From NCBI GenBank assembly GCA_947491475.1, contig CANLKN010000012.1:1-52929 (forward strand): 52,929 nucleotides of DNA, written 5' to 3'. Origin of the DNA: Akkermansiaceae bacterium. GTDB lineage: Bacteria > Verrucomicrobiota > Verrucomicrobiia > Verrucomicrobiales > Akkermansiaceae. Under the pieces are notes generated by a model that saw only the letters and a list, made by a program, of their open reading frames with translations, was not told the origin of the DNA and did not search any database. Below, piece by piece: positions 1 through 52,929 of this stretch (within the stretch, counting starts at the first letter, position 1; each line of letters opens with the position of its first letter). The position numbers and the translations under genes were made by a program.

Positions 1-2705
1 TTCTTGAGTTCGGCGGGATCGACTTTTTCCGCGCGTTTCTTGGCGAAACCGCTTTGCGAAACGCGGACGTCCTGAACGATACCGACGCAACCGGAAGGCA
101 CGCGCAGCGAAGTGTCCTTCACGTCTGCTGCCTTCTCGCCGAAGATGGCGCGCAGCAGGCGCTCTTCCGGGGCGAGTTCGGTTTCGGACTTCGGAGTGAT
201 CTTGCCGACGAGGATGTCGCCGGGTTTCACTTCGGCACCGATGCGGATGATGCCGTCGTGATCGAGGTTGCGCAGGGCGTCCTCACCGACGTTCGGAATG
301 TCACGGGTGATTTCCTCGGGACCGAGCTTCGTATCGCGGGCGGCGACGTCGAATTCGGAGATGTGGATGGATGTATAAACATCATCCTTCACCACCCGCT
401 CGGAGATGACGATGGCATCCTCGAAGTTATATCCATTCCATGGCATGAAGGCGACGAGCACGTTGCGGCCGATGGCGAGTTCACCGTCCTCGGTGTTCGG
501 TCCGTCGGCGAGCACCTGGCCCTTCTTGATTTTCTGGCCCTTCTTGACGATCGGCTTCTGGTTGATGCAGGTGCCGGCGTTCGAACGCATGAACTTGCGC
601 AGCGGATAAGCCATGATGCCCTTGTCGAGATTGCTCTTCACCGACTCCGGATCGGAGAGGAATTTCTCATCTGAAACGGGCAGTTTGCCATCCGAAGTGG
701 TGACGATGATTTCCGCAGTGGCGGCGGCAACGATGCCGTCCGCTTCGGAAACCACCACCGCGCGGGAATCACGGGCGGCCTTGCCTTCGAGCCCGGTGCC
801 GACGAGTGGCGCCTCGGACACAAGAAGCGGCACACCCTGGCGCTGCATGTTGGAGCCCATCAGCGCGCGGTTGGCGTCGTCGTGCTCAAGGAAGGGAATC
901 AGGCCGGCAGCCACGGAGACGAGCTGTTTGGGCGAGACGTCCATGTAGTGGCAGTCGGATGGCAGCGCTTCGATGAACTCGCCGCCTTTCTCGCGGGCGG
1001 TGATGCGCTCGGTGAGGAAGTTCCCCTTCTTGTCGATCGGGTTGTTTGCCTGGGCGATCAGGAAATTCTCCTCCTGGTCGGCGGTCAGGTATTCAATCTC
1101 GTTGCTGACCCTCGAATCCTTGACGCGGCGGTAGGGAGTCTCGATGAAGCCGAACTCGTTGATGCGCGCATAGGTGCACATCGAGTTGATGAGACCGATG
1201 TTCGGACCTTCCGGAGTCTCGATCGGGCAGATCCGGCCGTAGTGGGACGGGTGCACGTCACGGACTTCGAAGCCAGCGCGGTCGCGATTGAGACCACCAG
1301 GTCCAAGAGCCGAGAGGCGGCGCTTGTGGGTAAGCTCGGCGAGCGGGTTGGTCTGGTCCATGAACTGCGAGAGCTGGCTGCGGCCGAAGAAATCGCGCAC
1401 GACGGCGGAGAGCGCCTTCGGGTTGATCAACTTCTGCGGCGTCATGCCTTCGATGTTCACGTCGAAAAGAGTCATGCGCTCCTTGACCAGACGCTCGGTG
1501 CGGGCGAGGCCCACGCGGCACTGGTTGGCGAGCAGTTCACCCACCGCACGCACGCGGCGGGAACCAAGGTGGTCGATGTCATCAATGACGCCATCGCCTT
1601 TTTTCAACTTCAGGATGTAACGCACCGCGGCGAGGAAATCCTCGGGCACCATGATGCGCTGGTCGGAATCCACCTGGATGCCAAGCTTCTGGTTGATCTT
1701 GTAGCGGCCGACGCGGGTGAGGTCGTATTTCTTCGGATCGAAAAACAAACGCTTGAGCAGCGCGCGGGAGTTCGCGGCGGTCGGCGGATCGCCGGGGCGC
1801 AGCTTGCGGTAGATGTCCTTGAGCGCGGATTCCTCGTCCTTGGCGGGATCCTTGCGAAGCGACTTCAGTAGGATTTCGTCTTCACGGCCGTCGATGACCT
1901 CCACGGTCTTGTGGCCAAGCGCCAGAAGCTGGCGCACGATGCCGATGGTGAGTGGCTCGTAGGCCTTGGCTACGACCATCTCGCCCTCCTGAATGTCCTC
2001 GAAGGGCACTTTGTGGCCAAGTTCGCCTTCGTCCATCTTATCGCTCAACGCGAGAATTTCCGGCGTATAGAAATGGCTGACGATGTCGCGGTCCGTCGGA
2101 TAGCCGAGAACGCGGAGAAATGTGGTAGCCAGGAACTTGCGGCGGCGGCGGCGGCGGTCGAGATAAACGTAGAGCAGGTCGTTGGTGTCGAACTGCACTT
2201 CCAGCCACGAACCGCGGTCCGGGATGATGCGGAACGAGTGGAGCAGCTTGCCGTTGAGGTGCTGCGAGGTCTCGAAGCAGATGCCCGGCGAGCGGTGGAG
2301 CTGGGAAACGATCACGCGTTCGGCACCATTGATGATGAAAGTGCCGCGGCGGGTCATCATCGGCAGTTCGCCCATGTAAACGCGCTCCTTTTTGTTGCCG
2401 GTCTCATCCTTGAGCTTGAAGGTCACATAAAGCGCGGCGCTGAAGCTCTCGCTGTTGCGCAGCGATTCGAGCGAGGTGATTTTGGGGTCCTCGATGTCAT
2501 AAGTCACGAAATCGAGCCCGATGGCCTCATCATAACTCTTGATTGGGAAAACCTCGCGGAAGACCGCTTGCAAACCGGAATCGGTGCGTTCGGAAGGGGG
2601 CACTTCCTTTTGAAGGAACTCATCGTAGGACCGGCTTTGGACCTCAATGAGGTTGGGCGGTTCGATGACCTCTTCGAATTTCCCGAAATAGAGACGTTCA
2701 GCCAT
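1..2705 (-). CDS. rpoB: RNA polymerase beta subunit, 3' end outside window
   Basis: This is the N-terminal two thirds (about 901 codons) of the beta subunit of DNA-directed RNA polymerase. The reading frame starts at the ATG complementary to 2703-2705 ([17 protein letters not shown]...) and stays open to the left edge. Visible family landmarks are the fork/rifampicin region near residues 435-465 (1330-1400), with [12 protein letters not shown], then [15 protein letters not shown]. They are followed by [17 protein letters not shown] and, further on, [12 protein letters not shown]. The Asp, His and Ser positions usually altered in rifampicin resistance are the sensitive-type residues. A run of arginines near residues 180-190 (about 2140-2165) is unusual but in frame. 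It follows rplL in the normal order, separated by a 200-nt spacer with a strong hairpin. The opposite-strand open frames here are shadows. Confidence 0.98.
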
Positions 2706-2861
2706 GGTTTTATGTGGTATTTCTAATGACAAATTGAGCCCGAGCCGCGAACGGTCTCAGGCGGGGTGATTTTCAAGCGTGGAGAGTGTGTGTCGGAATC
2801 GGAGCGAAAGCCTCGGGTTGTCTGGAAAAAACGGGGATCTCGCTCCGGTTTCGGCGGAAGT

Positions 2862-2889
2862 TCCCGGGGCGGAACAGTCCGCCCCGGGA
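2862..2889 (-). promoter_or_regulatory. Perfect 12-bp hairpin between rplL and rpoB
   Basis: Arms TCCCGGGGCGGA (2862-2873) and TCCGCCCCGGGA (2878-2889) pair perfectly around a 4-nt loop. On the minus strand no U-run follows, so it is not a classical intrinsic terminator. Its place, between the ribosomal-protein genes and rpoB, is where many bacteria have an attenuator or RNase processing site. That role is inferred. It could instead be one of the genome's palindromic repeat elements. Confidence 0.6.
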
Positions 2890-2905
2890 GAAATCCAGTG
2901 GTGGG

Positions 2906-3277
2906 TTACTTGAGTTCGATTTTGGCACCAGCCTCTTCGAGCTTCTTCTTGGCGGCTTCGGCTGCGTCCTTGGCGACGCCTTCGAGCACCTTGGCAGGAG
3001 CGCTTTCGACGAGCTTCTTGGCGTCTGCAAGGCCGAGACCGGGAGCCACTTCGCGCACCGCTTTGATGACGGCGATCTTGTTGGCACCGCAATCGTTGAT
3101 GACGACGTCGAATTCGGTTTTTTCTTCGACGGCTTCGACAGCGGCAGGACCGGCGACCATGGCCACGGGAGCTGCGGCGGAGACGCCCCAGGTTTCTTCG
3201 AGTTGTTTAACGAGTTCGACGGCTTCCAGGACGGTAAGCTTGCCGAGTTCTTCTGCGAGTTGTGCGATGTTGGACAT
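2906..3277 (-). CDS. rplL: 50S ribosomal protein L7/L12
   Basis: A 123-residue protein forming the flexible stalk of the large ribosomal subunit, which recruits translation GTPases. It has the N-terminal dimerisation helix ([22 protein letters not shown]), an Ala/Val/Pro-rich hinge near residues 33-50, and the C-terminal globular domain with [20 protein letters not shown] and [15 protein letters not shown]. Length and domain order are those expected for the family. It lies downstream of rplJ after a 138-nt spacer, as usual, and upstream of rpoB. The N-terminus begins [13 protein letters not shown], consistent with an ATG at 3275-3277. Confidence 0.98.
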
Positions 3278-3415
3278 TATGTTTTTCCTTTTGCGGTATC
3301 GTCGCCTCCAGAGCCTCCGGAGATTTCAGTGCGGCAGCCGCCGCCCCGACGAGGAACCATTGTGTGTTCAGGCGGAAGCGGGAAACGCCGCCGCCATCCG
3401 TTCAGAGTGTTGTGT

Positions 3416-4009
3416 TTATTCGGCGGTGGTGGCTTCGGCAGGAGCTGCTGCTTCTTCGGCAACCGGGGCGGTTTCCGCAACCGCAGCTTCTTCCGCAGCT
3501 GGGGCGCTTTCTTCTTCCATCGGGCTGGATTCGCCCTCGGGATCGAACTTGTTTTTGATCACGCGGGCGATCATCGAGGCTGGCTCGAGGATGGTTCCGA
3601 GCAATTGCGAGAGAACCGCTTCGCGCGACGGAATGTCGGCGATGGCCTTGAGCTTCGCGCCGTCGAGCACGGCATTGCCGAGCAACCCGATTTTCATTTC
3701 CGGCTTCTTGAACTCTTTTTCAAAGTTCTTGATCACCTTGGCGGCAGCGAAAACCTCGCTTTCGCCCATGACGAAGGCCGTCTGGCCTACAAGGCCTTCA
3801 CTGATGTCCGGCAGGCCGGCTTCGGCGAGCGCCTTGCGCATGTAGGTGTTCTTGGCGACGGTGCAGCGTGCGCCGCCGGCATCGAGGCGGTTGCGCAGCT
3901 CGGTGAACTGCTGCACGGTGAGACCGGTGTAGTCGATAACGATCAGGTAGGGAGACGCGTTGACGCGATCCAGCAGCCCGTCGATGATGATTTTCTTATC
4001 AGGATTCAT
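3416..4009 (-). CDS. rplJ: 50S ribosomal protein L10 with acidic C-terminal tail
   Basis: A 197-residue L10, the stalk base that anchors L7/L12 dimers. The N-terminal part (MNPDKKIIIDGLLDRV...YLIVIDYTGLTVQQFTELRNRL) and the region with AKNTYMRKALAEAGL match the family. The last 40 or so residues are an extra tail of Ala and Glu (SPMEEESAPAAEEAAVAET...), longer than in the usual 165-175-residue proteins. The gene follows rplA by 18 nt, suggesting cotranscription. The acidic tail is not needed for the known L10 folds, so its role is unknown; it is low-complexity coding sequence rather than a frameshift. Confidence 0.97.
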   Translation of the reverse strand: MNPDKKIIIDGLLDRVNASPYLIVIDYTGLTVQQFTELRNRLDAGGARCTVAKNTYMRKALAEAGLPDISEGLVGQTAFVMGESEVFAAAKVIKNFEKEFKKPEMKIGLLGNAVLDGAKLKAIADIPSREAVLSQLLGTILEPASMIARVIKNKFDPEGESSPMEEESAPAAEEAAVAETAPVAEEAAAPAEATTAE

Positions 4010-4027: not shown

Positions 4028-4735
4028 TTAGGATGCGGATTTGGTGTAGGTGGCGGCTTCCAGCGGGATACCGGGAAGCATCGATGCGGCAAGCGTCACT
4101 GCCTGGATGTAGTTGCCCTTGGCGGAAGCGGGCTTGGCTCGCACCACGCTATCAAGGAAGGCGCGGGCGTTTTCCTCAAGCTGTGCGGGCTCGAACGATG
4201 ACTTGCCGATCGAACCGGAGATGTTGCCGTTTTTGTCGAGTTTGTAGTCCACGCGGCCGGCTTTCACTTCCTTGACGGCCTTGGCGGTATCGTCGGTGAC
4301 GGTTCCAGTCTTGGGATTGGGCATCAGGCCACGGGGGCCGAGCACGCGGGCGATCTTGCGCACTTCGGTCATGGCGTCGGGAGTGGCGATGGCGGAATCG
4401 AAATCCGTAAAACCCTCCTGGACCTTTTTGATGAGGTCCTCATAGCCGACATACTCCGCACCCGCAGCGATGGCGGCCTCCGCGGCAGCGCCTTGGGCGA
4501 AAACCGCGACACGGACATTTCGGCCGGTGCCATGTGGGAGTGAAACGGAGCCCCGGACCATCTGGTCGCTCTTGCGCGGATCCACGCCGAGGTGGAAGGA
4601 AAGCGTGACGGTGGGAGTGAATTTGGGCGCCGGGAATTGCTTCACGGTGGTGATTGCATCGGGCAGGGAGTAGCTCTTGCCTGCTTGGACGAGAGCGGCT
4701 GCCTTTTGGTAGCGTTTGCTGCGGTGTTTGGCCAT
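4028..4735 (-). CDS. rplA: 50S ribosomal protein L1
   Basis: A 235-residue L1, which binds 23S rRNA at the mobile L1 stalk and often represses its own operon. I place the start at the ATG complementary to 4733-4735 ([16 protein letters not shown]), which matches the conserved start. The open frame extends further upstream, but that part reads through the spacer and is not family-like. Landmarks include [45 protein letters not shown] and [13 protein letters not shown]. It lies 133 nt downstream of rplK, a spacer that contains a small palindrome, and 18 nt upstream of rplJ. Confidence 0.98.
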
Positions 4736-6403: not shown

Positions 6404-7588
<1,185 letters not shown>

Positions 7589-43336: not shown

Positions 43337-44005
43337 ATGGACACGATGAAACTTCTCCTTGGCGCCACCATCGCGCTGCTGCTCGGCGCGCTCGCGGTTT
43401 CCTGGCAAGGCATGCAGAGCGGTGTCAAAAATGCCCCGGCGGATGAAATCGCACGTCTCAGAAAACAAGTGGCGGAACTCCGGGCGGAGCAGGACAAGCT
43501 GCAACTCGAGAAGCAAATCCAGCAACTCAAAAGCATGCCGGAGGCCACGCCCGCGGCTTCCCCAAGCCAGTCGGAAATGGCGGCCATCAAGGCCCAGCTC
43601 GATGCAAATCAAGCCGCACTCGCCCAACTCGAGGCCGAAAAGGCCGCCGCCGCGCGCGATACCAAGGTGGCTCAGGATGAGGAGGGCCTGCTCAGCCAGC
43701 GCGACCTCGAAAAAGGCGACTCCGAACTCCGCCGCGCCCGCATGATCGCCGAGGCCCTGCTCATCGGCCGCGTCAGCGAATTCGTCGAGGACGCGGAATA
43801 CGGCGGCTTCATCACCTTCGATGTCCTCATGCCCGAGCAGGTCCAACCCGGCACCGTTCTCGCCATCCGACGCAAGACCGGCATTCTTGGCCAACTCAAG
43901 GTTTCCGACGTCACCGCCGAGGGAGGCATCGCCAATCCTCTCCCCGGCTTCGGCCCGGTGAACCCGCAGATCGGCGACGAGCTCATCCTGCCGCCGCAGT
44001 ATTGA
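43337..44005 (+). CDS. Membrane-anchored coiled-coil protein, unknown
   Basis: A 222-residue protein starting at the ATG at 43337 (MDTMKLLLGATIALLLGALAVSW), with one N-terminal membrane anchor. A coiled-coil follows (residues about 35-135: EIARLRKQVAELRAEQDKLQLEKQIQQLKS and ALAQLEAEKAAAARDTK). A C-terminal globular part with GRVSEFVEDAEYGGFITFDVLMPEQVQPGTVLAIRR looks like a small beta domain. No known family recognised. Its stop codon directly abuts the heptamer array before rimO, and the gene probably belongs with rimO or the upstream gene only by position. Confidence 0.75.
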   Translation: MDTMKLLLGATIALLLGALAVSWQGMQSGVKNAPADEIARLRKQVAELRAEQDKLQLEKQIQQLKSMPEATPAASPSQSEMAAIKAQLDANQAALAQLEAEKAAAARDTKVAQDEEGLLSQRDLEKGDSELRRARMIAEALLIGRVSEFVEDAEYGGFITFDVLMPEQVQPGTVLAIRRKTGILGQLKVSDVTAEGGIANPLPGFGPVNPQIGDELILPPQY

Positions 44006-44033
44006 TTTCAAATTTCAAATTTGAGATTTCAAA
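44006..44033. repeat. Four-unit heptamer array between two genes, ahead of rimO
   Basis: TTTCAAA, TTTCAAA, TTTGAGA and TTTCAAA follow without gaps from the base after a stop codon to 5 nt before the rimO ATG. The unit is that of the array inside alaS, which has TYTCAAA. Any ribosome-binding site for rimO would have to lie in this array; none is visible. Confidence 0.8.
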
Positions 44034-44038
44034 TTCCC

Positions 44039-45442
44039 ATGTCCACCACCGTAGGCCTCATCTCACTTGGCTGTGCCAAAAACCTGATCGACTCCGAAGT
44101 CATGATCGGCCACCTCGCGCAGGCCGGCATGTCGCTCACACCCGATCCGGAACTCGCCGACGTCCTCATCGTCAACACCTGCTCGTTCATCGACATGGCG
44201 AAAAAGGAATCCATCGACGCCATCTTCGGCGCGGTGGACGGACGCAGGACCGATCCTGACCGAGAGCGTCAGAAAATCATCGTCGCCGGCTGCTTGTCAC
44301 AACGTTTTGCTTCCGAGTTGCCCGGCATCATGCCCGAGGTGGATGCCTTCATTGGTCTCGACCAAATCACCAAGGTCGCGCCGATCATCGAGAACCTGTT
44401 AGGAAAAAAGAACGACGCCGAGGTTCAGAAAACCGAAGGTCCGTCCGCCACCGACGACCCGCGCGATTTCGTCACGCTCAAGCCGCAGTATGTGCCGGAC
44501 TACTCGACACCGCGCATGCGGCTCACGCCGGACCACTTCGCCTACGTGAAGATCGCCGAGGGCTGCAACCACACCTGCACCTTCTGCATCATCCCGAAAA
44601 TCCGCGGCCAGCACCGCTCGCGGACGCAAGAGTCGGTTTTCAAGGAAGTCGAGGCGCTGGTGAAATCCGGAGTTAAGGAAATCAACCTGATCTCGCAGGA
44701 CACCACCTATTTCGGCATGGACCAGTGGGAAGGCGAACGCCCGAAACCATCCTCGCCAGTCGATTCCACCAAGGGCAACTCGCTCTGCACTTTGCTGCGC
44801 CAAATCAACACCATCGAAGGCGACTTCTGGGTCCGCCTGCTCTACACCCACCCGGCGCATTGGTCCGACGAGTTGATACAGACCATCGCCGAATGCGACA
44901 AGGTTGCGAAGTATGTGGACATCCCGCTCCAGCACATTTCCGACCGCATGCTCACCGCGATGAAGCGCGTGACCACCGGCGATTACATCCGCGACCTGCT
45001 CCGCCGCATGCGCGCCGGCATCCCCGGCCTCGGCATTCGCACTACGTTCATCGTAGGTTTCCCTGGCGAGACGGAAGAGGATTTCAGCGAGCTGCTGGAA
45101 TTCATCCGCGAATTCCGCTTCGAGCGCGCCGGAGTTTTCCAATACTCGAAAGAAGAAGGCACCCGCGCCTACAAGATGGACGGCCACCTCCATCACGCCA
45201 CCCGCAAGAGCCGCTGGTCCCGCGCCATGGCCGAACTCCAGAAAATCGCCGGCGAGCTCAACGCCGAGCAGGTCGGCAAGCAAGTCCGCGTGCTCGTCGA
45301 GCAACCCGGCATCGCCCGCACCCAGTGGGACGCCCCCGAAATCGACGGCTCGGTGATTGTGGATGAATCGTTACCCGTCGGCGAGTTCGCCGACATCACC
45401 ATCGGCGACTGGCGCGGGTATGACCTCGTGGCGGCGAGGTGA
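44039..45442 (+). CDS. rimO: Ribosomal protein S12 methylthiotransferase RimO
   Basis: A 467-residue radical-SAM methylthiotransferase that modifies Asp of ribosomal protein S12. The start is the ATG at 44039 (MSTTVGLISLGCAKNLIDSEVMIGHL); the longer frame from 44021 begins in repeat DNA. The N-terminal UPF0004 domain has the cysteine ligands in SLGCAKN, VNTCSFI and VAGCLSQRF. The radical-SAM motif is EGCNHTCTFCIIP (CxxxCxxC). The C-terminal TRAM domain ends VGEFADITIGDWRGYDLVAAR. The last 151 bp recur at 47674-47824, beyond the restriction-modification genes. Confidence 0.97.
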   Translation: MSTTVGLISLGCAKNLIDSEVMIGHLAQAGMSLTPDPELADVLIVNTCSFIDMAKKESIDAIFGAVDGRRTDPDRERQKIIVAGCLSQRFASELPGIMPEVDAFIGLDQITKVAPIIENLLGKKNDAEVQKTEGPSATDDPRDFVTLKPQYVPDYSTPRMRLTPDHFAYVKIAEGCNHTCTFCIIPKIRGQHRSRTQESVFKEVEALVKSGVKEINLISQDTTYFGMDQWEGERPKPSSPVDSTKGNSLCTLLRQINTIEGDFWVRLLYTHPAHWSDELIQTIAECDKVAKYVDIPLQHISDRMLTAMKRVTTGDYIRDLLRRMRAGIPGLGIRTTFIVGFPGETEEDFSELLEFIREFRFERAGVFQYSKEEGTRAYKMDGHLHHATRKSRWSRAMAELQKIAGELNAEQVGKQVRVLVEQPGIARTQWDAPEIDGSVIVDESLPVGEFADITIGDWRGYDLVAAR

Positions 45443-45505
45443 GAAAACGTGTATTTTTGCTAATTTCGACTTGAATCCTCAAAATAGATTGTTCACAAGA
45501 ACACA

Positions 45506-46855
45506 ATGAATTCCCAAAAGATTCACCGTAATACGAGGAGACCGGTGGGAGTCGATCTTTTTGCAGGGGCGGGCGGAATGTCGCTCGGATTCGAGCAAGC
45601 TGGATTCCAGATCGCGGCGGCCGTGGAAATTGACCCGATCCATGCCTGCGTCCACGAGTTCAATTTTCCGGATTGCGCGGTAATTCCAAGATCAGTCAAG
45701 GAGGTGACAGGACGAATGATCCGGGAAGTGGCCGGCATCGAAGGAAAAGTCGATGTCGTTTTTGGAGGTGCTCCGTGCCAAGGCTTTTCAATGATCGGAA
45801 AGCGGATTCTGGACGATCCGCGGAACAGTCTGGTCAAGGACTTTGTCCGAATCGTCACGGAATTGGATGCGGAGCACTTTGTATTTGAAAATGTCAAAGG
45901 TCTGACCGTCGGGGCACACCGCGGATTTCTCGATGAACTGATACAGACATTCGAAGACAACGGGTATTCGGTTCGTCTTCCATGGTCCGTGCTCAATGCC
46001 GCCTCTTACGGTGTTCCTCAAGATCGCAAGAGATTGTTTCTTCTGGGTTCGAAAAAGGAACTGCGACTCCCCCTTTATCCCGATCCCACAACATCCCATC
46101 CCGGCCGCCACCCGGAAGTTCATCTAAATCCCGGCCCTACCTGTGGCGATGCTCTCGACGATCTGCCGAATGCGGACCGATTCACAAGCCTGCACGACAA
46201 TGATGAAGTCAACACGACCGCGTGGGGCAATCCGTCCCATTACGCCCGCGAAATGCGTTGCCTGTACGAAGCCGCCTGGCACTTCGGTGTTCCGCGCATC
46301 TGGAATCCTGAAATACTTACCTCAAGCGCCCGCACCGACCATTCCCAAATCTCACGCCTTCGATTCACGGAGACCCCACCCGGCTCGGTGGAGCCCATTT
46401 CCCGTTTTTTCAAACTTTCGCAGGATGGAGTCTCAAACACGCTGCGCGCAGGCACGGATGCCGCACGCGGAGCATTCACAAGCCCTCGTCCGATTCACTA
46501 TAGATATGCCCGCTGCATCACGGTCCGGGAAATGGCGCGGCTGCACGGATTTCCAGATTGGTTTCGTTTTCATCGCACCAAATGGCACGGTGCGCGCCAA
46601 ATCGGGAATGCTGTTCCTCCTCCGCTCGCCAGAGCGGTCGCCTCATCGGTTATGAAGGCCATCGGCATTGTTCCTAAACAGTCCAACAATGCCATAGCGC
46701 TTGGAAATCCGGCACTTCTTTCGATGGACATGTCCGAAGCCGCCGCTTATTGCGGAGTTGAGAGTCCGATTCAAAAACGTGACCGCAAGAGCGGTGCGCG
46801 CAAACGCTCCCAAATAGAGACAGAAACCGAGCGTCTTTCCAATATTGCAAGCTAA
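45506..46855 (+). CDS. Type II DNA (cytosine-5-)methyltransferase
   Basis: A 449-residue C5 methyltransferase. Motif I is GVDLFAGAGGMSLGFEQAGF (SAM binding), motif IV is GGAPCQGFSMIGKR with the catalytic cysteine, motif VI is HFVFENVKGL, motif VIII is VPQDRKRLFLLG, and motif X is QIGNAVPPPLARAVASSVMKAI. The target-recognition region lies between motifs VIII and IX, about residues 195-335; the recognised sequence cannot be predicted. It precedes the endonuclease by 5 nt (stop at 46853-46855, next ATG at 46861). Base composition and codon use are less GC-rich than the neighbours, fitting recent transfer. Confidence 0.95.
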   Translation: MNSQKIHRNTRRPVGVDLFAGAGGMSLGFEQAGFQIAAAVEIDPIHACVHEFNFPDCAVIPRSVKEVTGRMIREVAGIEGKVDVVFGGAPCQGFSMIGKRILDDPRNSLVKDFVRIVTELDAEHFVFENVKGLTVGAHRGFLDELIQTFEDNGYSVRLPWSVLNAASYGVPQDRKRLFLLGSKKELRLPLYPDPTTSHPGRHPEVHLNPGPTCGDALDDLPNADRFTSLHDNDEVNTTAWGNPSHYAREMRCLYEAAWHFGVPRIWNPEILTSSARTDHSQISRLRFTETPPGSVEPISRFFKLSQDGVSNTLRAGTDAARGAFTSPRPIHYRYARCITVREMARLHGFPDWFRFHRTKWHGARQIGNAVPPPLARAVASSVMKAIGIVPKQSNNAIALGNPALLSMDMSEAAAYCGVESPIQKRDRKSGARKRSQIETETERLSNIAS

Positions 46856-46860
46856 TCGAA

Positions 46861-47664
46861 ATGAGCAAACGTCTTCCAAACCGTTATCAGGCCCTCGTGG
46901 AAGATCTGTTCTTCACCTCTTTCAAAAAGGGAGCCACCGCCATTGCCTTCACTCGTGATGAGCTGTTGGCAACAGCAGACAAACTCGGGATTAAGATGCC
47001 CAAGAATCCGGGTGACGTGCTTTACTCGTTCCGCTATCGCTATCCACTTCCCGAGCGAATCCTGAAAACCCAGCCCGGAAAAATGGAGTGGGTGATCGAG
47101 GGCGCTGGCAGGGCGATGTATGAGTTTCGGCTTGTGCCGATCAACCGGATCGCCCCCAACGAGAGTTTGGTGACAATCAAGATACCGGACGCAACACCGG
47201 AGATCATCGCGAGCAATTCACTCTCCGACGAACAGGCATTGTTAGCCCGTGTCCGTTACAATCGCTTGATCGACATCTTCCTCGGAATCACCGCATATTC
47301 GCTGCAAAACCATCTGCGCACCACTGTAAAAGGCCTTGGCCAGATCGAAATCGACGAGGTTTACACCGGAATTGATCGTCATGGATGCCAATTCATCATT
47401 CCTGTGCAAGCAAAGGGCGGCAACGATCAGCTTTCAACCGTCCAAGCGAAGCAGGACATCGCGTGCTGTGCGGAGAAGTTTCCGAATCTCGTATGCCGTG
47501 CCATCTCCGCACAGTTTATGGATCATTCTAAAATCGCGATGTTCGAACTGTGCCTCGATTCATCCGGACTCGTGAAAACAGTGGAAGAACGTCATTATTG
47601 TCTCGTCCAGGCGGATCAGATCGGAGCATCGGACTTGGAGAGATACCGCTTTACAAGTCATTAG
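46861..47664 (+). CDS. Type II restriction endonuclease (PD-(D/E)xK type)
   Basis: A 267-residue protein immediately downstream of the methyltransferase. A likely nuclease core is visible as IEIDEVYTGIDRHGCQFIIPVQAKGGND, that is an acidic residue, a spacer, and QxK in a beta strand. This fits a PD-(D/E)xK site in which Q replaces the second acid, as in some restriction enzymes. The N-terminal part (LPNRYQALVEDLFFTSFKKGATAIAFTRDEL) is helical and may bind DNA. It is the cognate nuclease by position rather than by recognised family. Its stop lies 9 nt before the duplicated rimO tail. Confidence 0.8.
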   Translation: MSKRLPNRYQALVEDLFFTSFKKGATAIAFTRDELLATADKLGIKMPKNPGDVLYSFRYRYPLPERILKTQPGKMEWVIEGAGRAMYEFRLVPINRIAPNESLVTIKIPDATPEIIASNSLSDEQALLARVRYNRLIDIFLGITAYSLQNHLRTTVKGLGQIEIDEVYTGIDRHGCQFIIPVQAKGGNDQLSTVQAKQDIACCAEKFPNLVCRAISAQFMDHSKIAMFELCLDSSGLVKTVEERHYCLVQADQIGASDLERYRFTSH

Positions 47665-47673
47665 ATCAATCCA

Positions 47674-47824
47674 GCTCGTCGAGCAACCCGGCATCGCCCG
47701 CAGCCAATGGGACGCCTCGGAAATCGATGGCTCGGTGATGGTGGACGAGGCATTGCCAGTCGGCGAGTTCGCCGACATCACCATCGGCGACTGGCGCGGC
47801 TGCGATCTTGTGGCTGCGCGGTGA
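47674..47824 (+). pseudogene. Duplicated 3' end of rimO
   Basis: This 151-bp segment aligns without gaps to the last 151 bp of rimO (45292-45442). By hand count 19 positions differ (about 87% identity), mostly at third codon positions, and it ends at the same TGA. It encodes VEQPGIARSQWDASEIDG, then SVMVDEALPVGEFADITIGD and WRGCDLVAAR, with five amino-acid changes. It has no start and no radical-SAM domain. The silent changes show it evolved as part of a working rimO in another lineage before arriving here with the restriction-modification genes. Confidence 0.92.
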
Positions 47825-47832
47825 GATACGAT

Positions 47833-49113
47833 TCAGCACATGAAATCCGCGCACTTGGTAGCGCGTTCCTCGATGGATTGGACCAATTGACCGATGAACG
47901 GGTGGTCACTGTCTTCAAACAGCGAATCCCGCACGGAGACAACATGTCGGATCACATGGTCCACCAACGCCAGCACGCACGCTTTCACCCACGACGTATC
48001 CAACCCGGCCTCCCCGGCCCATTTTCTCCATCGGCTGCCATCAATTTGATGAAGTCTGTAAGTGCCGCCAATACTCATGGCGAGTTTCACCTTGGTCGAA
48101 TTTGGATCGCGCTCGTAAGGCAGCCATGAGGCGAGATCGTAGAACGGAGCGAGGCGCACGAAGTTGCCGGGAGCATGGAGCAGCGAATAATTCTTGGAGT
48201 GGGCGTCGGTGCCGGCAATGACCCAGTTGAGCGCGAGCGCCATGATAAAGCGGCTGACGTCATCGGAGCGGTCATCTGAAAACCGATCCAACAACTTCAC
48301 GATTTCGGCGGCCGATGGTCCGCCGTCAGCCTGATATTTCTGATTGGGATATCGGCCCAGTGCCTGACAGAGATCCTCCTGGTGCCAACGTGTGATGTCT
48401 CCTGAAGCACTGGCACTGCGGTCGTAGCGTTTGACACACAGAACGCGCTTTTCTCCGATTTGCATGATCTGGCTTTCAGCCCTCATCAATCCAACCTTCG
48501 CCGCGAGTTGGAGGCAGAAATGTTCGTTGAGCGCATGGTGGGCTAACTCGTCCAACTCGGGCTTCAGGATGTGCGTCGTTGGAATCCTCCCGCCGGGGAT
48601 GAACCAAGAACCATTTTTCAGATGAAGCGCGTCTTTTGTTTGCGCGCCCGCGAGACTGAAGCGACCCTCGATCTGCACGGGAAACGACCGCGACTGGGCG
48701 TTGAGGTCTTCGATCCGCTTCGCCAAGTCTTCCCCGGTCAAAGGCGTAAGCGTGTCGAGCGCACCGGAAAGAATCGGCTCCAGCCGCTCTTGGCGGACAA
48801 ATTGCAGTGCTCCTGCGCAGTCTTCGCCGACGTGTTTGATCAGATCGAAGGGATTACGCGGCGATACTTGGAAGCGCTTTCCCCAAGCCTCGATCACTGC
48901 GGGGTTGTCCGGCAAAAGACCTTGCAGGAACGGGCGGATCACACTGTCCGGATGATTCCGCTTCGCAACAGGCAAAGAGAGCGAGATCGGAAAGCTCCCA
49001 CTGCCGAATTGCCATACTTCATCGTAGGACAGTGTAATTTCATCGATCTTCCTGTCGTAAACGAGCGTTCCGACCGGAGTATTGCCGTATAGGATGTGCA
49101 ATGATTCCTTCAT
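47833..49113 (-). CDS. hipA: HipA-family serine/threonine kinase toxin
   Basis: A 426-residue HipA-like kinase. E. coli HipA phosphorylates glutamyl-tRNA synthetase, causing growth arrest. The N-terminal subdomain is IDEITLSYDEVWQFGSGSFPISLSLPVAKR and the ATP loop is RFSLAGAQTKDAL. The nucleotide-binding THILKPE follows, then the catalytic segment IAGTDAHSKNYSLL and the metal site LAPFYDLASWLPYE. All appear intact. Its gene overlaps hipB by 4 nt. The 3' end lies 8 nt from the rimO tail copy, so before the restriction-modification genes arrived hipA probably faced rimO directly. Confidence 0.93.
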   Translation of the reverse strand: MKESLHILYGNTPVGTLVYDRKIDEITLSYDEVWQFGSGSFPISLSLPVAKRNHPDSVIRPFLQGLLPDNPAVIEAWGKRFQVSPRNPFDLIKHVGEDCAGALQFVRQERLEPILSGALDTLTPLTGEDLAKRIEDLNAQSRSFPVQIEGRFSLAGAQTKDALHLKNGSWFIPGGRIPTTHILKPELDELAHHALNEHFCLQLAAKVGLMRAESQIMQIGEKRVLCVKRYDRSASASGDITRWHQEDLCQALGRYPNQKYQADGGPSAAEIVKLLDRFSDDRSDDVSRFIMALALNWVIAGTDAHSKNYSLLHAPGNFVRLAPFYDLASWLPYERDPNSTKVKLAMSIGGTYRLHQIDGSRWRKWAGEAGLDTSWVKACVLALVDHVIRHVVSVRDSLFEDSDHPFIGQLVQSIEERATKCADFMC

Positions 49114-49355
49114 GGCTTCAGCGGCCCCTCGGCGAACGGGTTGCTCTTCAGCGGCCCCGCATCGAGCCCCAGGTTCATTTCCCGGAGGGTTTTCAACACA
49201 AGGCCCAGCTCAACGGTTTCCTTGCCGTTTTCGAACTGGCTCACCCACAGGCGGCTGACTCCGACTTTTTCCGCCAACTGACCTTGTGACCAGCCACGCT
49301 GCTTCCGCTGGTCCCTCACCAGTTCCCCGAGTGTGTTGGCCGCTTTGATTCGCAT
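49110..49355 (-). CDS. hipB: HipB-type Xre antitoxin/repressor
   Basis: About 81 residues from the ATG complementary to 49353-49355 (MRIKAANTLGELVRDQRKQRGWSQGQLAEKVGVSRLWVSQFENGKETVELGLVLKTLREMNL); a frame start 12 codons upstream is possible. It is an Xre helix-turn-helix repressor with the recognition helix in VSRLWVSQFENGK. It neutralises HipA and represses the operon. Three CGTTCGC boxes lie just upstream. Confidence 0.92.
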   Translation of the reverse strand: MRIKAANTLGELVRDQRKQRGWSQGQLAEKVGVSRLWVSQFENGKETVELGLVLKTLREMNLGLDAGPLKSNPFAEGPLKP

Positions 49356-49378
49356 GAATGGATTCGTAGCGCTGCATG

Positions 49379-49441
49379 CGTTCGTTCGCAATCATAAATT
49401 TGCATACGTTCGCATGCGCAAAGGATATTGCAATCGTTCGC
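49379..49441 (-). promoter_or_regulatory. Putative hipBA operator boxes
   Basis: CGTTCGC occurs at 49383-49389, 49407-49413 and 49435-49441, spaced 24 and 28 nt; a partial CGTTCG occurs at 49379. Two are flanked by palindromic GCATGC or GCATAC. They sit between hipB and the MFS gene, on the upstream side of hipB. Multiple operator boxes are usual for HipB. The role is inferred. Confidence 0.55.
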
Positions 49442-49455
49442 TTGCATCCTCCCCC

Positions 49456-50712
49456 TCAATGCATCCCACCCGGCTTGGGAGCCAAGGGATCGGCGGCGCG
49501 GCGGCGGCGGAGCGTTTTCGCCTCTGGGACGAGCATCAGCGAGGCAATGGCGATCGCACCGAGCGACCACCATGCCAGCGACGACATCCGGATCCAATCG
49601 ATGAGATAAAAGCCGAGCAAGGGGGCGAGCATGCCTCTCACGCCGGTTAGAAACGAATGCACCCCCATGTAGTCCGCGACGAATTCCGGTTTCGCCACCT
49701 TGGTCACCCACAGGCTCCACGCGACGTTGCCGCCGGACGTGGCCATGCCGAAGAAAAACCCGCCGAGAACGAATCCCGTGATGCCGCCGTAGATGAAGAA
49801 CGAAGTGATCGCGGCCACGAAGAAGGCGTTGAGAACGATGCGCAGGAGAAAGAAATTCATCCGGTCGAACAAGCGTCCCCAAAACCGGGCGAAGACGAGA
49901 TTGGTCAAACTCGGAATCATCGTCACCACCAGCGCGATCATCGGCGGTGACAACTCGATGCCATAGCGCGGGTTGGCGAGAAACTCGACCCGCAGCGGCA
50001 GCATCAGCAGGTTTCCGAAACCCATCAGCATCCAGCTTGCGAGCAGCCAGCGGAAGAGCTTGTCGCTGCGGACATGGCGCATGCCGTGCAGCGGATTGGA
50101 GGAAGTCGCGACGTGCAGCACGGTCGAAGGACATTTTTCGATCCACCACGCACCCATGCCTGCGGCGGCGGCGAATGCCAGCATCAGCAGGCGGTAGCCT
50201 TCCATGTGCGCATCCAACCAAAGCCCGCCCGCCCAGGCGAAGATGGCGGCTGATAGAACCCGCACCATCACCGCTTTGGAAAACAGGTCGCCCCGTTCGG
50301 ATGCCGGATAGTTTTCCTGATAGATCTGGGTCAGCATCGGGATGCCCATCGTCAGACTCATCACGCCGATCATGCAGGCCGGCACGAACACCCGCAAATC
50401 GCCGAACAGCGCGGCAGCCAGAAAAGCGGCGCAGCCCGTCCAGCTTGCCACCGCCGCTCCGGTGGCGGCTTTCCAATGCATTTTTCGCGTCAACGAAACG
50501 GCCAGCGGACTCAGCAAGAGACCCAGCGGCCCGCCCGTGACCAGCAGGGCTTTCGCCGTAGCGCCCGCTTGGAAATGTTGGACGGCGATGAGGAGAAGAA
50601 ACGTCGCCGCGGAGGTTTCGAGCACGCCCGCAGTGACGGCACGGCGCATTTCGAGATGAAAGGTGCGGTCCCTGCGTTGGCGGACCTCCGATGTATCCTC
50701 TTCCCCGCTCAT
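49456..50712 (-). CDS. MFS-type membrane transporter
   Basis: About 418 residues with 12 predicted membrane segments. The start is the ATG complementary to 50710-50712 (MSGEEDTSEVRQRRDRTFHLEMRRAVTAGVLETSAATFLLLIAVQHF); a GTG six codons upstream is possible. The sequence has MFS-like features such as LTRKMHWKAATGAAVASWTGCAA, the central PMLTQIYQENYPASERGDLFSKAVMVR and NLVFARFWGRLFDRMN. No substrate can be inferred. It lies between hipAB and the helicase gene and seems unrelated to either, and its GC-rich codons are like the core genome. Confidence 0.85.
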   Translation of the reverse strand: MSGEEDTSEVRQRRDRTFHLEMRRAVTAGVLETSAATFLLLIAVQHFQAGATAKALLVTGGPLGLLLSPLAVSLTRKMHWKAATGAAVASWTGCAAFLAAALFGDLRVFVPACMIGVMSLTMGIPMLTQIYQENYPASERGDLFSKAVMVRVLSAAIFAWAGGLWLDAHMEGYRLLMLAFAAAAGMGAWWIEKCPSTVLHVATSSNPLHGMRHVRSDKLFRWLLASWMLMGFGNLLMLPLRVEFLANPRYGIELSPPMIALVVTMIPSLTNLVFARFWGRLFDRMNFFLLRIVLNAFFVAAITSFFIYGGITGFVLGGFFFGMATSGGNVAWSLWVTKVAKPEFVADYMGVHSFLTGVRGMLAPLLGFYLIDWIRMSSLAWWSLGAIAIASLMLVPEAKTLRRRRAADPLAPKPGGMH

Positions 50713-50836
50713 CGTCGTTCCCGTCCGCACCTCGCCAAGCTAGGGGCGGGAGCACCGGTGTCAAATCTCCGGGCAGCAGGTGCGACGCAGCTATCCAGCC
50801 CCGCGCCTGAATCCGCTTCCTCACCACAGCGTGACT

Positions 50837-52929
50837 TCAATACGTTGGCATGGCCGCACAACGGAACACCGCGTCCAGCACGTTCTGATCCTTGGCGGGA
50901 TCATAGGTCACGGTCATGGCGGTGCGATTTTTCGGATCGTGCCAGTCCTTCCAATGAATCATCAGCGCGCGTCCGTAGTCCTTGTGCTCGATCACCGCCT
51001 TGATCTTGGAATCCACCGAACCGATGGCGTGCTTGGTTTCGATCAACAGAATGCCGTCCTTTCCCACGGACCGCCCTTTCACGCCGACCAGGAAATCCGG
51101 GAAAAAGCGTCCTCCATCAGGCCGCACGATGGCCACCGAATATTTTTTGCGCGGCGGGTTGCGGTGCCACCAGAGCACCGTGCCGCTGGTGTCGTTGTCC
51201 AGGAGTTTTGCAAACTCCACCTCCCACTCGTTCAGGTCCGACGGGAAAACTCCGTAGATGTTTTTGAACGACGGCAACAAAGCCTCGGCCGAATCCACGA
51301 ATCCCGGCAGCGGCTCGGCTTCGCGGGTGAATGAAAACCGCGCCGCGCATTGTTTCTCCACATCCTTCAATAAACCCGGATACCGCACGAGAATCAGTGA
51401 AAGCGCGGCTTCGAGGCGTTCTTCGTCTTGCGCCACTTCGCTCAAGCCGTGGTTCACAAACTCCTCGGCCAAACGTTTCAACAAGTGATCCTGCAATTCC
51501 TTCGGGCTGAGATAGGTCTGGCGCATCAGCATGAGCTGCGCCTGCCGCTCGGCTTTTTCCAGGTCGATCCGCGCCTGGATGATTGAACGATGTTCTTCCT
51601 GGGCGTTTGCAAAGTGCGTTTTCTCAACGCGGATGATCTGCACATCCTTGGCCAATGCTGTTAGAAGCGCGCGGTTATCGAAGGCCACTTGCTGCTCCAT
51701 GCAGGTGAGCAGGTGTTCGAGGATATCAAGCGGCAGTTCCTGAGTGAGGAAACGCAGCGGCATGCCGGCTTTCAGAGGATAGCGGTGCACGCCGGGCGCG
51801 GCTTCCGCTTCTGAGACCGCGTCCGTTCGGACCTTCGCCGCGAGCTCTTCCAACAAATCGAGCAATCCCTGGCCCACTAGAGGAGATAACTTCGGCGGAC
51901 CGGGCCGGTCCGCCCTACCTTTGGAATCTGTGTCCTCCTCCTCCTCCGGAAACAGGATCGGCTGGTTGTGGGAAATCAGTTGTAGGTTCGGTTCGCCGCC
52001 GACCTTGGTGAGCATCACGAACGGACTCGTCTGCGTGAGCTGGCTCTTGAGTTGGTTGATCTTATCCGCCGCCGTGGAAATCCCCGCCTGGCTGTCGTGA
52101 TCCGCGAGAAACAGATAACCGTGACGCAGCATCGGAGGCAGATCGCGGCCTTGAAGGCGTTTGTGGACTCGCAGGATGCGCCCGATCAACTGCGTGCCGA
52201 AATCCGTGCTCTTGATCGGCCGCATCGAAACCATGCAGAAGGCCCGCGGCGCGTCGAATCCCAGCGCCGCCGCCATTTTGAATATCAGCACTTCCTTCGT
52301 CTCGTCGTGCGCGAGCGAGAGGAAATTTTCATCCGGCTCATCGGAAGTGTGCGTGGATATTGTTTCATCGGAAAACCCGAGTCCGATCAGTCCGTGGCGG
52401 ATCTCCTTGATGCTCTCGGATGAACCCGCCTGCACCATCAGCAAGGGCACCAGATCAATTCCCGCCGCCGCCAGTTCCTGTTTGATGCGCGCATGCATCG
52501 TGCAGGCGTCCTGCAAGGCCGCTGCCTCGAAATCCGCCAGCACCGCCTGGTCCGGCGGAGAAATGTAGGCGATGGACCGCACGCCCTCCTTCACAAGACC
52601 CGCCTCCACCGCTTCCTCGCGCGAAACCTGCACGCGGTGCAGATCCTTGATCGCGGCCGCCTTCATGAAGTGCTCGGCATCCGCATCGTCCGGCGTGGCC
52701 GTGACCATCAGCGTGTAGTCCGGTTGCAACACATCCCGGAAAAACTCCACACTCTGCGTCTTCGCGCCGATCCCGTGATGCGCCTCGTCGATGATCACGC
52801 CGATGCGGAAACCCGCGCTCCGTAGATCTGCTAGAAAATCATCCAGCGAGGCGAGTTGTTCGTTGTCGGTGCGGAGCTTGCGGGCGTCCGCCGAACGCGC
52901 GACCACCGAGGCCCAGGTGAGCACGAAGG
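50837..52929 (-). CDS. DEAH-box helicase with C-terminal nuclease-like domain, 5' end outside window
   Basis: About 697 codons are visible; the frame runs off the right edge, so the N-terminus with the Walker A motif is not seen. The helicase core shows GVIIDEAHHG (motif II), MVTATPDDAD (motif III), VSMRPIKSTDFGTQLIGRILRVHK (motif VI with Q-x-x-G-R-x-x-R) and a long helical middle. The last 100 residues carry GGRFFPDFLVGVKG and GILLIETKHAIG, the pattern of a PD-(D/E)xK nuclease (PD and ExK). This combination is seen in type III restriction Res subunits and related defence helicases. A palindromic repeat element is inserted in frame (51894-51914). Confidence 0.88.
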   Translation of the reverse strand, partial: FVLTWASVVARSADARKLRTDNEQLASLDDFLADLRSAGFRIGVIIDEAHHGIGAKTQSVEFFRDVLQPDYTLMVTATPDDADAEHFMKAAAIKDLHRVQVSREEAVEAGLVKEGVRSIAYISPPDQAVLADFEAAALQDACTMHARIKQELAAAGIDLVPLLMVQAGSSESIKEIRHGLIGLGFSDETISTHTSDEPDENFLSLAHDETKEVLIFKMAAALGFDAPRAFCMVSMRPIKSTDFGTQLIGRILRVHKRLQGRDLPPMLRHGYLFLADHDSQAGISTAADKINQLKSQLTQTSPFVMLTKVGGEPNLQLISHNQPILFPEEEEDTDSKGRADRPGPPKLSPLVGQGLLDLLEELAAKVRTDAVSEAEAAPGVHRYPLKAGMPLRFLTQELPLDILEHLLTCMEQQVAFDNRALLTALAKDVQIIRVEKTHFANAQEEHRSIIQARIDLEKAERQAQLMLMRQTYLSPKELQDHLLKRLAEEFVNHGLSEVAQDEERLEAALSLILVRYPGLLKDVEKQCAARFSFTREAEPLPGFVDSAEALLPSFKNIYGVFPSDLNEWEVEFAKLLDNDTSGTVLWWHRNPPRKKYSVAIVRPDGGRFFPDFLVGVKGRSVGKDGILLIETKHAIGSVDSKIKAVIEHKDYGRALMIHWKDWHDPKNRTAMTVTYDPAKDQNVLDAVFRCAAMPTY
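51894..51914. repeat. Perfect palindrome inserted in frame in the helicase gene
   Basis: GGCGGACCGG, G, CCGGTCCGCC: a 10-bp perfect inverted repeat followed by CTACCTTTGG. In the protein it appears as RADRPGPPK after the acidic stretch PEEEEDTDSKG. The tail CCCTACCTT matches the element at 36113-36142. Confidence 0.6.

Follow-up and report, generated by a model that had tools for sequence, protein, structure and literature searches.

How a restriction-modification system without a mobility gene comes to lie between two copies of the same host gene end is the question raised by a locus in a 52,929-nt stretch of DNA from an Akkermansiaceae bacterium (GenBank assembly GCA_947491475.1, contig CANLKN010000012.1, positions 1 to 52,929; hereafter the window). 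Here, the gene rimO is followed by a methyltransferase-endonuclease pair and then by a second rimO 3′ end. The movement of restriction systems that lack mobility genes is an old open question, for which the term "long target duplication" gives a description and no mechanism. Our favoured answer, which we consider probable though by no means secure, is that the rimO 3′ end is an integrase-free insertion hotspot, and that the restriction pair entered it through a recombination that exchanged the end of the gene.

An insertion between rimO and hipA

The first-pass annotation of this DNA had described a repeat of 45,292-45,442 at 47,674-47,824, with 19 differences in 151 positions and no gaps, and an exact count agrees. 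The full detected repeat is slightly longer (45,292-45,444 and 47,674-47,826; 153 nt, 88%, gap-free), the first 29 nt of the two copies are identical, and blastn between the two flanks gives an E value of 2.5e-51, far above chance; other direct repeats within the examined 7-kb region are at most 30 nt long. Copy 1 (45,292-45,442, forward strand) lies in frame in a functional gene, the intact rimO (44,039-45,442, forward strand), and its likeness to copy 2 ends 2 nt past the stop codon. The encoded 30S ribosomal protein S12 methylthiotransferase is 467 amino acids (aa) long and matches TIGR01125 with 464.6 bits (cut-off 357), as well as TRAM_2, Radical_SAM and UPF0004. Copy 2 (47,674-47,824, forward strand) is a fragment only, a displaced rimO 3′ end. 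That it is a chance match, or belongs to another TRAM-domain gene, is ruled out by its 88% identity over 153 nt and by its agreement in frame and register with the rimO ends of the genus.

Relatives were sought in a genus set of 73 genomes, the window's own included, whose named members are Akkermansiaceae, Akkermansia, Haloferula and Verrucomicrobiaceae; ten of them contain a relative of the endonuclease. G059, among the closest by rimO (96% aa identity), lacks the endonuclease, and its rimO is followed by a convergent hipA (81% aa) and then hipB. Window positions 43,613-45,436 align to 7-1,836 of G059 and window positions 47,674-49,412 to 1,692-3,430, the two alignments overlapping in the rimO end. 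G059 has a single rimO end, and both parts of the window correspond to overlapping, continuous sequence in it. This empty site identifies the restriction pair as an insert and places copy 2 at the native rimO/hipA junction, with which it is continuous. Both the insertion between rimO and hipA and the adjacency of these genes in relatives had been anticipated in the first pass, and G059 displays them.

The inserted pair is, judging by its sequence, a type II restriction-modification system with both genes intact and adjacent. The first gene (45,506-46,855, forward strand) has an intact frame for a C5-cytosine DNA methyltransferase (PF00145, 3.8e-65; PADLOC MTase_II PDLC03326, 6.4e-171), with M.HaeIII and M.HhaI as relatives in the PDB. 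The second (46,861-47,664, forward strand), also an intact frame, encodes a type II restriction endonuclease (PADLOC REase_II PDLC03404, 4e-119) with no Pfam match and no significant PDB sequence relative. Its structural model (predicted local distance difference test score 71) has Cas4-like nucleases as top fold matches, which are weak (E 1.3e-3, template-modelling score 0.25); the protein is perhaps a PD-(D/E)XK nuclease. The left spacer of the module (45,443-45,505, forward strand) includes a 23-nt stretch running into the methyltransferase start that is the same at 22/23 positions in genome G024, and the right spacer (47,665-47,673, forward strand) leaves 9 nt between the endonuclease stop and copy 2. 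The G+C content of the insert is 52.9%, versus 60.7% for rimO.

G024 (rimO 92% aa) provides a second rimO case. Its rimO is followed by a comparable pair (79% and 83% aa) and, 2.7 kb on, by a second rimO end; the two ends are 90.8% identical over 142 nt. Copy 2 starts 10 nt further into rimO than it does in the window, and a hipB (73%) without hipA is placed between the endonuclease and the rimO copy. From 1.26 kb behind this copy, G024 carries genes found downstream of the insert-free rimO in G065; its closer relatives G013, G001, G011 and G041 have different neighbours there. An extra rimO end was found only in the window and G024 when the 73 genomes were searched (58 with a rimO match of at least 81%). 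Apparent extra ends in G053 and G058 were set aside as genes split between contigs (overlaps of 143/144 nt and 107/107 nt).

The rimO end may have received more than one module. In the window, copy 2 is followed on the reverse strand by hipA (47,833-49,113; PF07804, PF13657), a toxin-type kinase gene, and by a hipB-like antitoxin gene (49,110-49,391; HTH_31 and HTH_3 above cut-off, TIGR03070 at 68.2 bits, slightly below its cut-off of 71.65). Past the 5′ end of hipB, G059 retains a short piece of the rimO end (33 nt without gaps, 27/33 identical; L094 4,006-4,038), located where G024 carries its rimO copy. This remnant was spotted by eye ahead of a shuffle test, in which its score of 36 was equalled in 0/300 shuffles (null maximum 32). 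The presence of a rimO end past hipB in both G059 and G024 suggests that hipBA itself reached this gene end by an earlier insertion. This arrangement further suggests that the window is a tandem of rimO, restriction pair, rimO end and hipBA, and the G024 copy may belong to the hipBA layer and not to the restriction pair. Behind hipB in the window no such remnant was found; a transporter gene absent from G059 stands there.

Turnover beside rimO is high. Neighbourhoods were collected from the window and 34 relatives, of which 32 genomes had at least 1 kb behind rimO; with the window and G024 counted twice (at the insert and behind it), these gave 34 sequences, which fall into 24 neighbourhood types beside this core gene. 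As to excess recombination within rimO itself, the final stretch of the window gene shows no greater likeness to G059 than to other genomes, although the trees of 148-bp ends lack resolution.

Recurrence at the ends of other genes

An alignment of the endonuclease was scanned against the GTDB collection (84,980 species by its description), and the best 80 of 171 relatives were used. Adding the window and G005 made 82 loci; 10 were dropped for a flank below 400 nt, and 72 were tested. Direct repeats of at least 80 nt between the 1.5-kb flanks occurred at 9/72 loci and in 1/80 control segments, which come from the same loci and are not fully independent (two-sided Fisher p 0.007). Four of the nine repeats are the 3′ end of the upstream gene: rimO twice, yicC in G046 (locus L124; 105 nt, 97%), and an AP_endonuc_2 TIM-barrel gene at locus L171 of G466, an Acidobacteria metagenome-assembled genome (429 nt, 92.5%). 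The likeness ends 0-2 nt past the stop codon in the window, G024 and G046, and 4 nt ahead of it at L171. At L123 and L132 the repeat is the 3′ end of the convergent downstream gene (labels assigned by eye) and bears signs of decay; by eye, the repeat at L154 looks like a transposase gene pair, and the flanking repeats at L130 and L177 have no explanation. Apart from these nine, a repeat at L169 represents, by eye, tandem paralogues. When 86 distinct loci were scanned under laxer criteria, the only further matches were short, inverted or paralogue-like. A CAAC-like motif at the copy-2 starts of three cases was seen by eye only, and nothing is claimed for it.

The L171 case has a near-identical relative with an empty site, G581, whose gene body is 98.0% identical to that of G466. 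Over 435 sites, copy 1 of L171 differs from G581 at 13 and copy 2 at 35, which points to two sources for the copies. The stretch that departs from G581 holds the restriction pair, a Vsr gene, copy 2 and a Uma2 gene that does not resemble its counterpart in G581; beyond it, the two genomes are again 97.6% identical. The state of L171 is best explained by contiguous import from another lineage through homologous recombination. The Vsr gene (L171 6,814-7,266; PF03852) encodes a mismatch endonuclease and lies beside the restriction pair. Immediately after the same gene, G467 carries a methyltransferase of this kind, and the genome yielded no further copy of the gene's end. Likewise, no flanking repeat was found around a pair at yicC in G016.

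We also compared the trees of the restriction genes for the three same-gene pairs known to the analysis, a set assembled without a systematic search for same-gene pairs that fail to group. The restriction genes at the L171 gene group with a support of 100, those of the yicC pair (G046 and G016) with 99/95 and 93, and those of the rimO pair (window and G024) with 89/90 and 81/81 when both restriction genes are used. In 3/3 pairs the restriction genes are more diverged at silent sites (d4) than the gene beside them (1.2-2.7 vs 0.37-0.74). Since hipA and rimO show the same tendency (d4 0.62 vs 0.23), this excess may in part reflect a faster evolution of accessory genes.

Further traces were seen around related loci. 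In G081 (L067, oriented, 48-298 vs 1,537-1,917), a second methyltransferase gene fragment, 83-90% identical, lies ~1.2 kb upstream of the intact pair and may be what decay has left of an older pair at this site. G067, in which the search of the 73 genomes detected no endonuclease relative, has a decayed yicC end (C99:4,423-4,629; 52% identity, one stop) apart from its intact yicC, perhaps another displaced gene end. Direct repeats of 44-45 nt (~80%) lie close around the pair in G005 (L066 5,161-5,204 and 7,721-7,763) and G109 (L209, oriented, 4,488-4,532 and 6,846-6,890), the one in G005 beginning in the final codons of a pyruvate-carboxylase-like gene; these are possibly eroded displaced ends.

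One source or two for the gene ends

The two window copies had been described as differing mainly by silent changes. This is correct, as 14/19 differences are at third codon positions and 5/16 changed codons are nonsynonymous. Counted by codon positions 1, 2 and 3, the differences are 3, 2 and 14 in the window, 3, 2 and 8 in G024, 1, 0 and 2 in G046, and 3, 1 and 31 at L171. These counts were compared with simulated duplications in which copy 1 stays under constraint while copy 2 has been free to drift since its birth, at the observed total of differences. For the window, 10.3-10.8 nonsynonymous codons were expected and 5 were seen (P 0.0035); for G024, 7.3-7.7 were expected and 3 seen (P 0.006-0.011); and for L171, 19-20 were expected and 2 seen (0/600 runs in each of two settings). 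When both copies were constrained throughout, 2.7-2.8 nonsynonymous codons were expected in the window (P of at least 5, 0.09-0.14), and thus gene-like divergence with some decay fits the window. A Poisson P (1.5e-7 for the window) rests on an uncertain silent distance and was set aside for the simulation. In line with the first-pass proposal that the second copy evolved in a working rimO, both copies look gene-like.

In the account that we favour, the hotspot, a feature of this genus, would admit small modules with no integrase in evidence, hipBA probably being the first and the window's restriction pair, right after the rimO stop, a later one. The pair would have entered by a recombination involving the rimO end of another lineage, with homologous exchange within rimO on one side and, on the other, a junction immediately past the endonuclease that was either non-homologous or duplicated. 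Copy 1 would be the functional end that rimO kept or regained, and the other end would have been left behind the module as copy 2, at the hipA junction. We infer that the exchange of the gene end is what set the two copies apart; it may have coincided with the insertion, or have followed it as an allelic transfer at an already duplicated locus.

A number of observations weigh against this account. In a tree of rimO ends (37 rows, 148 columns), the approximately unbiased (AU) test rejected none of three groupings: the two window copies together (p 0.39), copy 2 with G059 (p 0.42), and copy 1 with G059 (p 0.36). The split of the two segments into different lineages, predicted in the first pass, is not seen in this tree; the grouping of the two copies, which would have spoken against two sources, is neither established nor rejected. 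The retention of all three groupings agrees with the first-pass caution that the native copy is not obvious and that either end could be the incoming one. For G024, the two copies as a pair are not rejected either (AU p 0.34), although copy 1 groups with G013 and G001 (96/87) and not with copy 2. Copy 2 of the window carries nonsynonymous changes, and therefore part of its divergence is probably decay, and the simulation for G046 gives no information on divergence. At L171 the foreign end is copy 2 and copy 1 is native-like, the opposite of a simple displaced native end; thus, the direction in the window cannot be assumed. The restriction genes of the window and G024 are far more diverged than rimO (d4 1.3 and 2.7 vs 0.37), and their methyltransferases alone do not group. 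The two rimO cases are therefore not simply one shared insertion, and the inheritance of such an insertion by both is doubtful. Finally, most of the repeat cases come from draft metagenome-assembled genomes.

Other objections speak directly for a classical one-step insertion, in which 151 bp of rimO were duplicated in place and the copies diverged later, copy 2 as a pseudogene. We regard this course as unlikely, while granting it real weight. Among 37 usable rimO ends, a TTR leucine codon occurs only in the two window copies, the others having CTN or ATC/ATT, and this shared codon favours common descent of the copies. The G046 copies are 97% identical, L123 and L132 fit an ordinary duplication with decay, and long target duplication is known for restriction systems (PMC3031569, citing Nobusato 2000 and Furuta 2010). 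Against this stand the nonsynonymous differences in the window, G024 and L171, which are too few for a neutral copy, and the repeat edges in the four upstream-gene cases, whose position within a few nucleotides of the stop codon is not expected of random duplication. A recent tandem duplication, moreover, is unlikely given the divergence.

Alternatively, the module, or a larger element since lost, could have carried an attachment site made of the rimO end and been inserted by a site-specific recombinase that was later lost or acted in trans, so that hipBA and the restriction pair would be tandem integrations. The apparent tandem at one gene end, the restored gene and the silent differences are all compatible with such an element, as are the identical first 29 nt of the window copies and the copy-2 starts only 10 nt apart in the window and G024. 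Element e14 in icd of Escherichia coli is an example of the prophages and islands that restore a gene end in this manner: the element brings a working 3′ end that differs mostly at silent sites, and the old end is displaced. In the present cases, however, several unrelated genes are used, the native and foreign ends of L171 are the reverse of those predicted, and the two restriction genes fill the space between the copies. As the first-pass annotation had remarked, no integrase is visible: a Pfam scan found none among eight window proteins, the rimO neighbours in other genomes not having been scanned for integrases or mobile-element genes. A tyrosine recombinase behind rimO in G011 was considered as the mover and rejected; with relatives in 69/73 genomes, it is probably a housekeeping gene. 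A recombinase also lies beside rimO in G015 and G017. A pattern search of viral contigs yielded no relative of the rimO end, and matches to it in phages were all below 46% identity (best E 3e-3), with no attachment site carrying the rimO end. We therefore hold an integrase-type element to be quite improbable.

That the locus is an artefact joining two strains in a metagenome-assembled genome is very improbable: although the window genome is a draft of 182 contigs, G059 matches both sides of the insert, further cases exist in G024, G046 and G466, and the right junction, inspected by eye, shares nothing with the rimO sequence preceding copy 1 that an assembler could join, making a simple misassembly unlikely.

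Relation to known systems and neighbouring genes

Insertion of restriction systems with "long and variable target duplications" has been described by Nobusato 2000 and Furuta 2010, as cited in PMC3031569 and PMC3154945, the former work also being cited for this in PMC2749054. The first-pass annotation had likened the window to such insertions, and both the empty site and the long flanking host repeat are found here. As far as these citing papers portray them, the shared features are a compact pair without a mobility gene, host sequence repeated directly on both sides (105-429 nt in our four cases) and a host gene that remains usable. In contrast to the simple duplicates of these descriptions, the copies in the window, G024 and L171 show the kind of differences seen between two functional alleles, and no repeat ends more than 4 nt from the stop codon. 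Integrase-free hotspots exchanged through recombination in flanking core genes have also been reported (PMC5635113). These resemble the rimO locus in that genes of mobile elements were not seen, turnover next to a core gene is high and, in the account favoured here, the flanking gene recombines, whereas at rimO the exchange would leave a visible scar, the displaced gene end. A literature search on rimO, restriction-modification and duplication found no paper. Overall, the window locus is a well documented case of something already known, with one informative twist: its "duplicated" ends look like two alleles and not like copy and original.

If the two ends do stem from two working alleles, the scar is a record of a recombination event. 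Such an origin would predict silent-dominated differences, edges at gene ends, and scar-free species with the pair behind the same gene; the last of these matches G467, as well as G016 at yicC. Displaced gene ends would also offer a simple sequence signature by which to trace the spread of defence genes. A far-reaching version of this account, which we regard as unlikely, makes the ends of conserved genes (rimO, yicC and others) docking places for integrase-free restriction and hipBA modules, which would stack in tandem, each bringing a working gene end and leaving the old one as a scar. Gene-end exchange of this sort, if true, would account for the long "target duplications" seen with restriction systems and require no transposition.

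Beyond hipB, the window contains two more genes. An MFS transporter gene (49,456-50,730), not in G059, lies between hipB and a helicase-like gene, and its position suggests another insertion or loss beside the rimO/hipBA spot. The helicase-like gene (50,837-52,924) encodes at least 695 aa, its frame being open at the window end, and has a weak PADLOC match to a type III restriction enzyme (2.5e-5); it is possibly a further defence gene.

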